Assembly (NCBI RefSeq): GCF_014897585.1 | Contig: NZ_JABUXW010000003.1 | Location: 1 to 64,000 of the forward strand | Direction: 5' to 3' | DNA length: 64,000 nucleotides | Source: Brachybacterium tyrofermentans | GTDB lineage: Bacteria > Actinomycetota > Actinomycetes > Actinomycetales > Dermabacteraceae | Part shown: one piece after another, positions 33,556 through 51,695 of the stretch | Layout: every line of letters begins with the position of its first letter | Position numbering within the stretch: the stretch's first letter is position 1 | Program-made: the position numbers and the translations under genes | Notes under the pieces: generated by a model | What the model was told of the DNA's origin: nothing | Database searches by the model: none | Seen by the model: only the letters and a program-made list of their open reading frames with translations

Positions 33556-33602
33556 CACGATCCGCTCCCGCCGCCGAGACGGCTAGACTGTCGGGGTCAT
33601 CC

Positions 33603-33695
33603 ACTGACAGGGGAGCACCGCCACGGTGCTGAGAGTGCGCGAACCTGCGCAGACCCTCGAACCTGATCCGGCTCGCACCGGCGTAGGGAGTCGGG
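33603..33695 (+). ncRNA. TPP riboswitch (THI element)
   Basis: Conserved landmarks are in order: ACAGGGGAGC, then CTGAGA (33629-33634), a variable P3 arm (GTGCGC...TGCGCA), ACCC with GAACCTGAT (33659-33667) and GTAGGGA (33683-33689). The element lies upstream of ykoE, a thiamine/HMP transporter gene, so it should turn expression down when thiamine pyrophosphate is high. Confidence 0.93.
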
Positions 33696-33727
33696 ACATC
33701 CGCGCGGGGCCACCGGTCCTGTGCGCC

Positions 33728-47969: not shown

Positions 47970-47986
47970 CTCCGCCAGGGAGTCAG
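47966..47986. terminator. Bidirectional hairpin containing both stop codons
   Basis: CTGACTCC (47966-47973) pairs with GGAGTCAG (47979-47986) around a 5-nt loop. The HTH gene TGA (47967-47969) and the response regulator stop (complement of 47983-47985) both lie in the stem. Confidence 0.65.
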
Positions 47987-48663
47987 CGCCCTGCCCGCAC
48001 CAGCCCGGACTCGTAGGCGGCGACCACGAGCTGGGTGCGATCGCGGAGCATCAGCTTGGAGAGCATGCGGGAGACATGGGACTTCACCGTCTGCTCGGCC
48101 ATCACCAGCTCCTTGGCGATCTCCCGGTTCGCGAGCCCGCGCGCCACCAGCAGCAGCACGTCGATCTCGCGCTCCGTGAGCGCCGCCAGGCTCGCATCGT
48201 CCCGGGCGCTGCGCTCGGGGCGCGCCACGAAATCGGCGATCAGGGCGCGGGTGACGCGGGGCGCGAGCAGCGAATCGCCGCCCGCGACGACACGCACCGC
48301 CTGGACGAGCTCATCGGGTGTGGAATCCTTGAGCAGGAACCCGCTCGCCCCGGCCCGCAGGGCGGCGAACACATACTCATCGGCATCGAAGGTGGTCAGC
48401 ATGATGATCTTCGGAGGCGTCCCCGGCATCGCGAGCACCGAGCGGGTCGCGTCCAGGCCTCCGACGTGCGGCATGCGGATATCCATCAGCACCACATCGG
48501 GGCGGAGACGACGCACCACCTCGACGATCCCGGCGCCGTCGCCCGCGGTGCCCACCACCTCGATCCCGTCCTGCGCATTCAGCAGCGCCTCGAAGCCGCC
48601 GCGGATCATCGACTGGTCGTCGACGATCAGCACACGGATGACTGCCTGCTCAGGGGGAACCAT
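47983..48663 (-). CDS. NarL/LuxR family response regulator (DesR-like context)
   Basis: A 226-residue regulator. Receiver Asp61 (VVLMDIRMP), TTFDADEYVF and the KDS lysine block are intact, and the C-terminal LuxR HTH reads LTEREIDVLLLVARGLANRE...VKSHVSRMLSKL. A -10-like TACTGT is 6 nt before the ATG (leaderless). It is divergent from the histidine kinase gene at a 38-bp distance, and the desaturase gene lies after the kinase. By comparison with Bacillus DesK-DesR, it may activate the desaturase under membrane stress (inference). Confidence 0.88.
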   Translation of the reverse strand: MVPPEQAVIRVLIVDDQSMIRGGFEALLNAQDGIEVVGTAGDGAGIVEVVRRLRPDVVLMDIRMPHVGGLDATRSVLAMPGTPPKIIMLTTFDADEYVFAALRAGASGFLLKDSTPDELVQAVRVVAGGDSLLAPRVTRALIADFVARPERSARDDASLAALTEREIDVLLLVARGLANREIAKELVMAEQTVKSHVSRMLSKLMLRDRTQLVVAAYESGLVRAGR

Positions 48664-48701
48664 GGCGCCACAGTATCCCCGCTTCCCGAGAGGACCCCTG
48701 A

Positions 48702-50525
48702 GTGTTCCTCGTCCCTGACCGACACAGCCTGCGCCGGCTGGGCCACGACCTCGCCCTCATCCTGCCGGGCCTCGCCCTGACCCTGCTCGCGATCGTGGTG
48801 CTGCTGCCGCTGGCGGCGGTCTCCGCCGCGCTCGCCATCGTCTGGATCGGGGTGCTGCTGTTCCCGCTCACCCTGGCCCTGGCCTCGGTGTACGCGCAGC
48901 TGGACCGTGCCCGCCTGAGGCGCTGGGGCGTCGAGGTCAACCCACCGAGCTATCGACCGCGAGGGCGCGGCCCGCGCGGGCTGCTGCGTCTGGTCACCGA
49001 TCCGCGCCGCTGGCTCGACCTGGCCTTCGAGGCCCTCATCGCCCTTCCGGTGCGCGCGCTGACCGTCGGGGTCACGGTCGCCTGGGCCGTGCTCGCCCTG
49101 GCCGGCCTCAGCTACTGGCTGTGGGGGCGGACGCTGCCACCGGGCGGGACCCCGGTCCCCGGCCAGTGGTCGCTCGCCCTGGTCCTCGGCCTCGCCCTGG
49201 CCCTCTCCTTCCCGGCGATGGTGCGTGCGCTGGCGCTCCTGGACGCGGTGGTCTCCGTGCCGCTGCTCGGCGGGGCGGTCCCGGGATCCCGCCGCCGCGG
49301 CTCCCCCGCTCCGCCGACGGTGCTCACCGTGGACGCCCGGCTGCGCGAGGGCGCCTGGACCTGGATGACGGTCGCCTTCATCAGCTTCGTGCTGGTGGTG
49401 GTGAGCTGGCCGGTCACGGCCGGCCTGTACTCCGTGCACCCGGCTGTGGCGATGCTGGTCTCGATCGCCTCAGCCCTCGCCGGGGTGCTGGCCGTGCGCT
49501 GGCCATGGGCCGGGCTCTCCCTGAGCATCGTCGGAGCCATGGCGACCATCCTGGCGACGGCCTCGGCCCCCGATACCCTCCCCTGGCCATGGCCGGTGAC
49601 CGCCCTGCTGGCCCACTGCCTGACCCTCACCGTGCTGGCGGTCTTCCACCGCTGGTTCTGGGCGGTCTCGGCCTGGTCCGGCGGCGCTCTGCTCACCCTC
49701 ATCTCCCTGCTGATCACGGAACCTGCCATCCGTGCGGACGACTCGCTGCGGGCAGTGACCACCAACGGCGTGGTGCTGGTGGCGATCAGCGGCGGCGTGG
49801 TGCTGCTGGGCCTGACCGTGCGGCAGTGGCTGCTGATCAGCTCGCAGGTCGAGCAGGCCCAGTCCCTGGGTGCCGACCAGATGCGCCGGCGCTACGAGCT
49901 CGAGGAGCGCAGTCGCATCGCGCGCGAGCTGCATGATGTGGTGGCCCACTCGATGTCGGTCATCACCGTGCAGGCGGGCACCGCGAAGTTCCGGCTCTCG
50001 GGCCTCGACGCCCAGACCGAGCAGGAGTTCGAGGACATCGCCGCCTCCTCCCGGCAGGCCCTCGGGGAGATGCGGTCGCTGCTGGCCACCCTGCGCACCG
50101 ACGACGACCTCGACGACATGCCGATGCCCGGCCTGGCCGACGTCACCGACCTGGTCGAGACCAGCCGCGCCACGGGAGCCTCGATCAGCGCCGACCTCGA
50201 GCCGGTGGAGGTCCCCCCGACGGTGGGGCTGACCGCCTACCGGGTGGTGCAGGAAGCCCTGAGCAACGCGCTGCGCCATGCGCACGGCGCGGCGATCGCG
50301 GTCTCGGTCTCCGTCTCGTCGACCCCGGAGAGGACCCTGCAGGTGAACGTCTCCAACGTCGCACCCGAGTCCGAGCATGACCCCATCCCCGGCTCCGGGT
50401 TGGGCCTGTCGGGAATCCACGAACGGGTCTCCGCCCTCGGAGGCTCCGTCCAGGCAGGGCCCTCGCCCGACGGCGGCTATGCGATCTCCGCGCAGATCCC
50501 GATCGCGCACCCCCTACCCCGGTAG
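48702..50525 (+). CDS. Sensor histidine kinase (DesK-like context)
   Basis: A 607-residue kinase with about ten predicted membrane segments over the first ~390 residues, then a HisKA_3 domain (SRIARELHDVVAHSMSVIT, His ~411) and a HATPase with the N box QEALSNALRHAHG and G box GSGLGLSGIHER. A GTG start at 48702 follows GAGAGGA by 8 nt. Divergent from the response regulator. The large membrane part is consistent with sensing the membrane itself. The gene's 3' end lies inside a 12-bp inverted repeat in front of the desaturase. Confidence 0.88.
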   Translation: MFLVPDRHSLRRLGHDLALILPGLALTLLAIVVLLPLAAVSAALAIVWIGVLLFPLTLALASVYAQLDRARLRRWGVEVNPPSYRPRGRGPRGLLRLVTDPRRWLDLAFEALIALPVRALTVGVTVAWAVLALAGLSYWLWGRTLPPGGTPVPGQWSLALVLGLALALSFPAMVRALALLDAVVSVPLLGGAVPGSRRRGSPAPPTVLTVDARLREGAWTWMTVAFISFVLVVVSWPVTAGLYSVHPAVAMLVSIASALAGVLAVRWPWAGLSLSIVGAMATILATASAPDTLPWPWPVTALLAHCLTLTVLAVFHRWFWAVSAWSGGALLTLISLLITEPAIRADDSLRAVTTNGVVLVAISGGVVLLGLTVRQWLLISSQVEQAQSLGADQMRRRYELEERSRIARELHDVVAHSMSVITVQAGTAKFRLSGLDAQTEQEFEDIAASSRQALGEMRSLLATLRTDDDLDDMPMPGLADVTDLVETSRATGASISADLEPVEVPPTVGLTAYRVVQEALSNALRHAHGAAIAVSVSVSSTPERTLQVNVSNVAPESEHDPIPGSGLGLSGIHERVSALGGSVQAGPSPDGGYAISAQIPIAHPLPR

Positions 50526-50532
50526 GGGGTGC
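50507..50532. promoter_or_regulatory. Long inverted repeat upstream of the desaturase gene
   Basis: GCACCCCCTACC (50507-50518) is mirrored by GGTAGGGGGTGC (50521-50532) with a 2-nt centre. It spans the histidine kinase stop (TAG at 50523-50525) and ends about 57 bp before the desaturase start, a typical activator position. It could be the response regulator binding site; a terminator is the alternative, but the tiny loop and lack of T-run argue against it. Confidence 0.6.
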
Positions 50533-50588
50533 AGGTTCGCTCCGAGGAGGGACGCCAGGAGGCTCGTCCCAGCACTAGCGTCATCGAC

Positions 50589-51695
50589 ATGACGACCACT
50601 GCACAGCGGCCTCCGGCCCAGTCTCGACCTCCGGTCCAGTCCCGGGCCGCCGCCCAGACCAAGGACTACTTCGAGCTCTCGCAGCGCGTGAAGGATGCCG
50701 GCCTGATGGGTCGCAACGTCCGCTCCTACGTTCTGCGCACCGTGCTCCTCGGCCTCGCCTTCGTCGGCGCCTTCGTGCTGCTGCTGACGCTGGGCAGCAC
50801 CTGGTGGCAGCTCGCCGTCGCCGTCCTCTTCGGGATCCTGTTCACGCAGGCGGCGTTCATCGGCCACGACGCCGCGCACCAGCAGGTCTTCTCCTCCGGC
50901 AAGCGCAACGCCTGGTTCGCGCGCATCATCGGAAATCTCGTGGTGGGCCTGGCCATCGCCTGGTGGACCCGCAAGCACAACAAGCACCACGCGAACCCCA
51001 ACACCGTGGGCCGCGACGGGGACATCGCCGGCGGAGTGCTGGTGTTCATCCCTGAGGAGCAGGCCACCCGCACCGGCTTCATGGCCTGGTTCGCGAAGCG
51101 TCAGGGCTGGGCCTTCTTCCCGATCCTCACGCTGTTCGGCTTCGTGCTGCACTACGAGGGCATCACGGCTCTGCTGAAGACCGAGAAGGTCAAGCACCGC
51201 AAGGTGGAGCTGGCGCTGGTGCTGGTGCGTCTCATCGGGTTCCCCGCGATCGTGCTCTCGACTCTGGGCCTCGGCATGGGCCTGGCCTTCCTCGGCGTGC
51301 AGATGGCGGTCTTCGGGGTCTACATGGGCTCCTCCTTCGCCCCGAACCACAAGGGCATGCCGCTGATCCCCAAGGGCCTCGAGGTCGACTTCCTGCGCCG
51401 CCAGGTCCTCACCAGCCGCAACATCAGGGGCGGCCTGCTGATGAACTGGGCGATGGGCGGGCTGGACCTGCAGATCGAGCACCACCTGTTCCCCCGCATG
51501 CCCTCGGCGAACCTGCGCAAGGCGAAGCCGATCGTCAAGCAGTTCTGCGCCGAGCGCGGGATCACCTACACCGAGACGAACCTGATCACCTCCTACGGGA
51601 TCATCATCCAGTACCTCAACCGGGTGGGCCTCGGCCACGCCGATCCGATGGACTGCCCGCTGGCAGCCCAGCTGCGCGGCGCCTCCGTCGCCTGA
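50589..51695 (+). CDS. Fatty acid desaturase
   Basis: A 368-residue membrane desaturase. The three His boxes are HDAAH (93-97), HNKHH (about 130-134) and QIEHH (about 298-302), which bind the di-iron centre. Four or so membrane segments lie near 50-90 and 180-260. It resembles actinobacterial acyl-CoA desaturases such as DesA3. The N terminus has an 18-bp-period repeat (RPPAQSRPPVQS). A -10-like TAGCGT (50576-50581) is 7 nt before the ATG (leaderless). Likely controlled by the adjacent two-component system through the inverted repeat. Confidence 0.9.
   Translation: MTTTAQRPPAQSRPPVQSRAAAQTKDYFELSQRVKDAGLMGRNVRSYVLRTVLLGLAFVGAFVLLLTLGSTWWQLAVAVLFGILFTQAAFIGHDAAHQQVFSSGKRNAWFARIIGNLVVGLAIAWWTRKHNKHHANPNTVGRDGDIAGGVLVFIPEEQATRTGFMAWFAKRQGWAFFPILTLFGFVLHYEGITALLKTEKVKHRKVELALVLVRLIGFPAIVLSTLGLGMGLAFLGVQMAVFGVYMGSSFAPNHKGMPLIPKGLEVDFLRRQVLTSRNIRGGLLMNWAMGGLDLQIEHHLFPRMPSANLRKAKPIVKQFCAERGITYTETNLITSYGIIIQYLNRVGLGHADPMDCPLAAQLRGASVA

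Follow-up and report, generated by a model that had tools for sequence, protein, structure and literature searches.

Does Brachybacterium tyrofermentans adjust its membrane through a two-component circuit of the DesK/DesR kind, and which DNA element would such a circuit read? The question is raised by three adjacent genes at 47983-51695 of a 64,000-nucleotide stretch of its genome (contig NZ_JABUXW010000003.1, positions 1 to 64,000; hereafter the window), which a preliminary description had recognized as encoding a NarL-type response regulator, a polytopic histidine kinase and a three-His-box desaturase, and had interpreted as a membrane-fluidity circuit with its own operator. To our knowledge, membrane-fluidity adjustment in high-GC Gram-positive bacteria is far less worked out than in Bacillus. 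Our comparisons partly support this interpretation, chiefly in its central element of a dedicated operator for a desaturase circuit, and we consider it probable that the locus is an actinobacterial DesK/DesR-like circuit in which the kinase senses membrane state and the regulator activates the desaturase gene from the operator. The finding is also larger than first noted, as the operator is common to many actinobacteria and stands beside other envelope genes too.

Locus layout and a candidate operator

Pfam domains and the His boxes confirmed the three gene assignments. The regulator gene (47983..48663, minus strand) is divergent from the kinase gene (48702..50525, plus strand), which is followed by the desaturase gene (50589..51695, plus strand). 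The regulator fits the NarL/LuxR type, with a receiver domain (Response_reg) in which the Asp, Thr and Lys positions were located and a GerE helix-turn-helix with the recognition helix AEQTVKSHVSR. The kinase carries PF13796 (Sensor), HisKA_3 and HATPase_c domains and starts at GTG 48702, a conserved position that is ATG in 5 of 10 aligned genus loci. The desaturase (PF00487; His boxes HDAAH, HNKHH and QIEHH) is the sole match to its own protein in the genome, and its mRNA is probably leaderless; we placed its start at ATG 50589, not at GTG 50529, which opens the reading frame, because the ATG is conserved.

Between kinase and desaturase lies the 12+12 bp inverted repeat of the preliminary description, exactly as it was described: 50507..50532, with perfect arms and a 2-bp centre, ending 57 bp before ATG 50589. 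Its 22-bp core, ACCCCCTACC-NN-GGTAGGGGGT, occupies 50509-50530, and the repeat spans the kinase stop codon (50523-50525), a detail absent from the earlier account. At up to three mismatches of its 24 specified bases, the 4.6 Mb genome contains a single copy of the repeat and none of the reversed control; the repeat is therefore not a chance occurrence. The preliminary description had also proposed looking for the repeat elsewhere in the genome. With a shorter 16-base core and at most two mismatches, no further copy was found in the genome, and the reversed control itself occurs once, so that degenerate single sites carry little meaning.

Conservation in the genus

An orthologous kinase is present in 13 of 36 genomes of the genus, that of B. 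tyrofermentans included (59-100% identity within the aligned portion); a desaturase of at least 74% identity is encoded in these same genomes. Conservation of the repeat near the desaturase genes of relatives, on which the preliminary description had staked its reading beforehand, was found in all 13, at the same place in each. A scan at up to three mismatches catches 12 of them, and a 1-bp deletion in one arm of the operator in genome G002 is visible in the alignment; across 58 genomes, the same scan finds the operator in 14 and the reversed control in 2. The regulator gene lies beside the kinase gene in 12 of the 13 genomes, and in the thirteenth the contig starts inside the kinase. The remaining 23 genomes, four of which are just 74-88% complete, lack the operator, a kinase match of comparable strength and any desaturase with more than 50% identity; seven of them have a distant desaturase (44-50%), with no site scoring above 13 of 20 at the locus.

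In the genus alignment, the repeat, the elements TTCGCTC and GGGACG (or similar), the -10 box and the ATG are near-constant in spacing, and the flanks have diverged. In genome G032, the repeat is intergenic, the kinase gene ending upstream of it, and the distance from repeat to ATG is unchanged.

Coding constraint was considered as a reason for this conservation and rejected. The sole CTA leucine codon of the kinase falls inside the repeat, and CTA makes up only 3 of 468 leucine codons in eight genes of the window; moreover, the second arm lies partly past the stop codon, and the repeat of G032 lies outside the gene.

A GC-rich perfect stem at a stop codon could also be a transcription terminator or an RNA hairpin that ends the kinase gene, and double changes that preserve pairing do occur, three at pair 1 and two at pair 2 on the outside and one at pair 10 on the inside. 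No run of T follows the stem, however, and compensatory changes are absent from pairs 3 to 9 in 28 distinct sites, which were selected for this analysis by their likeness to the consensus; within them, TAC and GTA, 4 bp apart, never vary. The repeat of G032, furthermore, keeps its distance to the desaturase and not to the kinase stop, and in other families the repeat follows a regulator gene or precedes a desaturase without a two-component gene in the fetched DNA. These comparisons largely refute a terminator or hairpin, which we regard as extremely improbable.

Promoter geometry

Downstream of the operator, alignment reveals a conserved second element, TTCGCTC (50536..50542, plus strand; often TNGGCTC in other families), which may be a second regulator site; a -35-like GGGACG (50549..50554, plus strand; mostly GTGACG or GTGATG in other families); and a putative -10 box, TAGCGT (50576..50581, plus strand; mostly TANNGT), 7 bp before the ATG. 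The geometry was compared over 51 desaturase loci, in which the -10 box and ATG were located by a fixed pattern (no match in L094, L122 and L139) and at least two of which duplicate the promoter of another locus exactly, perhaps because one genome is present in two collections. The distance from the operator centre is 54-56 bp to the start of the -10 box and 66-69 bp to the ATG in 48 of the 51 loci; the GTGACG-like element lies 27-29 bp from the operator centre in all 51, and 20-21 bp before the -10 box in 48.

The distance of the operator, its constancy and the long promoter spacer favour activation. Upstream binding sites can also repress, and sequence does not give the sign of regulation, so a repressor that sits on the repeat until a signal releases it has to be weighed. 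The site is nevertheless centred about 70 bp upstream, outside the core promoter and at near-constant spacing, and a spacer of 20-21 bp, if GTGACG is the -35 element, fits a weak activated promoter; we consider repression improbable, and activation from the repeat remains our preferred reading.

Conservation beyond the genus

A search with the exact 18-base core found 49 stretches among genomes of 84,980 species, 48 of them Actinomycetota by name and one Hymenobacter. As these loci were chosen by their operator, only their neighbours are informative: a desaturase is present in 24, a regulator of this type in 32, and a kinase and/or regulator in 35, which leaves 14 with neither, three of them desaturase loci. 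The 8 kb fetched for L118, the Hymenobacter locus, match neither the kinase nor the regulator nor the desaturase, and this occurrence of the core is probably due to chance.

For an operator-independent sample, 248 genomes of the order were compared with the desaturase, and the best matches gave 27 newly fetched loci; three of the 30 loci offered were left out as they had been fetched earlier (L002 and L037, which have both the site and two-component genes, and L045, which has neither). A site scoring at least 14 of 20 was present within 260 bp upstream of the aligned start in all 18 loci with an adjacent kinase and/or regulator, and in one of nine loci with no two-component gene within about 1.5 kb (Fisher p = 4e-6, uncorrected). 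The 18 loci represent four genera of four families and the nine represent eight genera, and we therefore also counted the contrast by genus, which gave 4/4 versus 1/8 (p about 0.01). Five of the 18 sites score just 14-15, values that the reversed control reaches seven times in the 109.5 kb searched; at 14 or more, the same 109.5 kb contain 23 forward sites and 7 of the reversed control. Near-identical species inflate the counts in all of these comparisons.

Together, these comparisons support, at the level of sequence, a link of the operator to this regulator type and to desaturases across several families of Actinomycetota, at a near-fixed distance; the position is activator-like, as the preliminary description had remarked. 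The gene cluster, the operator, the promoter geometry and the link to a regulator subfamily and desaturases can, in our view, be taken as established by comparison.

Regulators linked to the operator

Which regulators would read this operator? In a set of 72 distinct regulators (sequences with fewer than 185 aligned query residues, more than 280 residues or less than 90 bits, and identical sequences, were dropped), the recognition-helix signature QTVKxHV[S/T] is present in 45 of the 46 that are operator-linked, that is, with a site anywhere within the fetched stretch (at least 14/20 at desaturase loci, at least 16 elsewhere), versus none of the 26 others. The helix pattern found nothing in L121, the sole operator-linked exception, or in 3 of the 26 others. 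The genomes of L122, L094, L106 and G252, in which a desaturase with operator has no complete adjacent two-component pair in the fetched DNA, all still encode a regulator that bears the signature.

A quick tree, with 25 open forks, groups the operator-linked regulators together with few exceptions. Those linked to desaturases form two main groups, one of the window type (Brachybacterium, Nesterenkonia, Yaniella and Promicromonospora; Shimodaira-Hasegawa-like approximate likelihood ratio test [SH-aLRT] 100) and one of the Brevibacterium type (SH-aLRT 94), with L095 and L111 near it; regulators with other targets branch around the two. In this tree, the well-supported branches require the desaturase label to have changed at least twice, which may mean gain on two occasions or one gain and one loss. 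Two regulator clades tied to desaturases through one operator amount to a natural experiment on how two-component systems exchange targets.

The kinase and its sensor

The kinase core has the features expected of a DesK-type enzyme, namely, a HisKA_3 domain and a conserved phospho-acceptor motif (HDVVAH), in which His411 (49932..49934, plus strand) is assigned the phospho-acceptor role from the HisKA_3 family. DesK structures are the nearest solved relatives of the catalytic core by sequence and, narrowly, by fold as well; the fold search was uninformative on the membrane module, as its top 50 rows were kinase or related cytoplasmic structures.

The preliminary description had counted about ten membrane helices. 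This agrees with an AlphaFold model (mean predicted local distance difference test score [pLDDT] 72.9, predicted template modelling score [pTM] 0.45, 14 sequences), which has about four plus six, and hydropathy instead gives 11 segments. The first part is an accessory PF13796 "putative sensor" module (48762..49268, plus strand; residues 21-189) of about four membrane helices, a region of lower confidence in the model. It is followed by a six-helix membrane module (49314..49829, plus strand) with predicted helices at residues 218-242, 247-266, 268-286, 299-315, 318-339 and 346-431, the last of which runs on into the phospho-acceptor helix and carries His411. The model thus predicts a sensor part built solely of membrane helices, the last continuous with the signalling helix, and neither the model nor hydropathy reveals a sizeable extramembrane domain before the catalytic part. 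Trp-Pro 295-296 is invariant in 20 of 20 aligned kinases.

DesK has five membrane helices, according to PMC8301901, and the kinase of the window has 10-11. From this excess, the preliminary description had argued for an independent actinobacterial version, an argument that is weakened by the relatives. Of 10 further kinases encoded at repeat loci (stop-to-stop frames), those of Nesterenkonia and Yaniella were the two in which PF13796 was found; it was not found in the other eight, which include Brevibacterium, Promicromonospora, Pseudolysinimonas and Nocardioides. Kinases that lack it have six (Brevibacterium) or five (Promicromonospora and Nocardioides) hydropathy segments; the Pseudolysinimonas frame has only two, and its start looks wrong. 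Since the relatives mostly keep a module of five or six helices, near the five of DesK, and the best solved relatives of the core are DesK structures, helix count is a weak argument for independent origin.

Two kinase genes in the genus look damaged. Among those at L015/L102 (Brachybacterium sp. Z12, genome G022) and L014 (G032), one is split over several frames and the other is matched partly, with a TGA; the regulator also looks intact at both loci, and sequencing error or real decay could account for the kinase frames.

A proposed DesK/DesR-like circuit and its alternatives

How might the circuit work? The kinase would read membrane state through its six-helix module, to which PF13796 would have been added in this branch, and would phosphorylate the divergently encoded NarL-type regulator. 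The phosphorylated regulator would bind as a dimer to the 12-2-12 repeat, the centre of which lies about 70 bp upstream of the predicted leaderless desaturase start, with a second dimer perhaps on the conserved TTCGCTC-GGGACG stretch, and would switch on a weak promoter with a long spacer and a poor -35 element. More double bonds in the membrane fatty acids would then cause the signal to cease. Direct contact of regulator and DNA, activation, the nature of the signal (membrane order or temperature) and feedback are steps that we infer.

The kinase might instead sense envelope damage, an amphipathic compound or a lipid-precursor pool, in the manner of LiaRS or VraSR, with the regulator still controlling the desaturase through the repeat; desaturation would then be an envelope-stress response. 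The best solved relatives of the regulator are VraR, NarL, DevR and DesR, with VraR ranking ahead of DesR, we know of no ligand for the accessory PF13796 module, and the operator also adjoins Acyl_transf_3, Abhydrolase_8 and ABC (ATP-binding cassette) ATPase genes, all of which would suit such a signal. By contrast, the kinase core is closest to DesK and has no sizeable extramembrane domain ahead of its catalytic part, and the desaturase-linked regulators occupy two separate main clades, so that control of a desaturase is not a single oddity. We consider another signal rather unlikely and favour a kinase that reads the membrane itself.

Several observations weigh against the circuit as we propose it. 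Two members of the genus with a broken or shortened kinase frame have an intact-looking operator and desaturase all the same. Two clusters of kinase, regulator and desaturase genes, L210 and L211 (genomes G095 and G214), have the signature helix and yet no site of at least 15/20 in 7.5-8 kb, which points to either a changed site or another control. Nine of 11 further signature regulators, from ten hand-picked genomes, have no site of at least 15/20 within 1.5 kb; the helix signature is therefore not sufficient, and the contrast with the 26 other regulators would be smaller if these 11 were added to them. L155, one of the 26, was manually classed as "no operator"; its 17/20 site lacks TAC/GTA. 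In the fold comparison, DesK is only narrowly ahead of other kinases. Because genes of acyltransferase, hydrolase and ABC type also adjoin the operator, the circuit may respond to more than fluidity.

Set beside known systems, the proposed circuit most resembles DesK-DesR-des of Bacillus subtilis, with which it shares a HisKA_3 kinase with a sensor of membrane helices and a core best matched by DesK, a NarL-type regulator, an adjacent membrane desaturase and a regulator site (here predicted) upstream of the desaturase. The Bacillus gene order is des-desK-desR, whereas here the regulator is divergent or, in other loci, the order is kinase, regulator, desaturase. The helix number differs from that of DesK in the kinase of the window (about ten) and is 5-6 in several relatives. 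The desaturase mRNA is apparently leaderless, unlike that of Bacillus des, and the desaturase belongs to a different PF00487 branch, scoring 39 bits against the Bacillus Delta5 Des family (NF052548), the cut-off of which is 500. A Bacillus-type promoter carries an inverted plus a direct repeat; here one strong palindrome was observed, with a second conserved element that may be a further regulator site. VraSR and LiaRS share the HisKA_3 kinase, and VraR is the best solved match of the regulator, but the desaturase target and the polytopic sensor set the locus apart, and the operator is probably different from VraR and LiaR sites. The 7-2-7 palindromes of the NarL/MacR type likewise have two-fold symmetry centred on TAC...GTA; here, however, the outer half-sites are rich in C/G and 4 bp separate TAC from GTA. 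Among the matches listed in a search of the open-access literature, we found neither this operator nor, for these actinobacteria, a two-component circuit that controls a desaturase. The comparison points to a circuit of the DesK/DesR kind with its own wiring. The locus offers a concrete operator, regulator and promoter for testing in a harmless bacterium of cheese or soil, and from its letter-level code targets can be predicted for other actinobacteria.

Membrane and envelope genes that adjoin the operator

Eleven of the 49 core loci (L080, L082, L086, L089, L091, L099, L107, L109, L114, L119 and L123) share a membrane protein family; the three members tested are Acyl_transf_3, and a regulator is also present in nine of the 11. 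A second family, of which three tested members are Abhydrolase_8, occurs in five core loci and adjoins the operator in two (L078 and L082). In L097, an ABC ATPase gene directly follows the operator, and a further family, two tested members of which gave no Pfam match, is common to five Streptomyces loci. Firmicutes are reported to show a comparable spread (PMC7726353): DesK-like systems there adjoin ABC transporters, and the promoters resemble the des promoter.

A broader proposal, whose chances we regard as evenly balanced, is that one operator and one NarL-regulator subfamily (QTVKxHV[S/T]) form an old switch for membrane and envelope remodelling across Actinomycetota, whose targets have been exchanged while the DNA code and the geometry of the desaturase promoter stayed fixed. 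The exchanged targets would include the desaturase (in two regulator clades), a membrane acyltransferase, an alpha/beta hydrolase and an ABC transporter.

Other features

No copy of the operator was seen at the divergent promoter between regulator and kinase in an alignment of 10 genus loci. The same alignment shows a conserved region there with a putative -10 box, TACTGT (48670..48675, minus strand), which would give a leaderless regulator mRNA. Among the matches listed in a plasmid search (20 of 126 records), two regions on large plasmids were examined, L213 of Frondihabitans and L214 of Arthrobacter; both contain acyl-CoA desaturase genes with no two-component gene listed within 4 kb, and the Frondihabitans desaturase gene sits between transposase genes. 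The only Rfam family in the window is a thiamine pyrophosphate (TPP) riboswitch (RF00059, 69.1 bits) at 33599-33706 on the plus strand.

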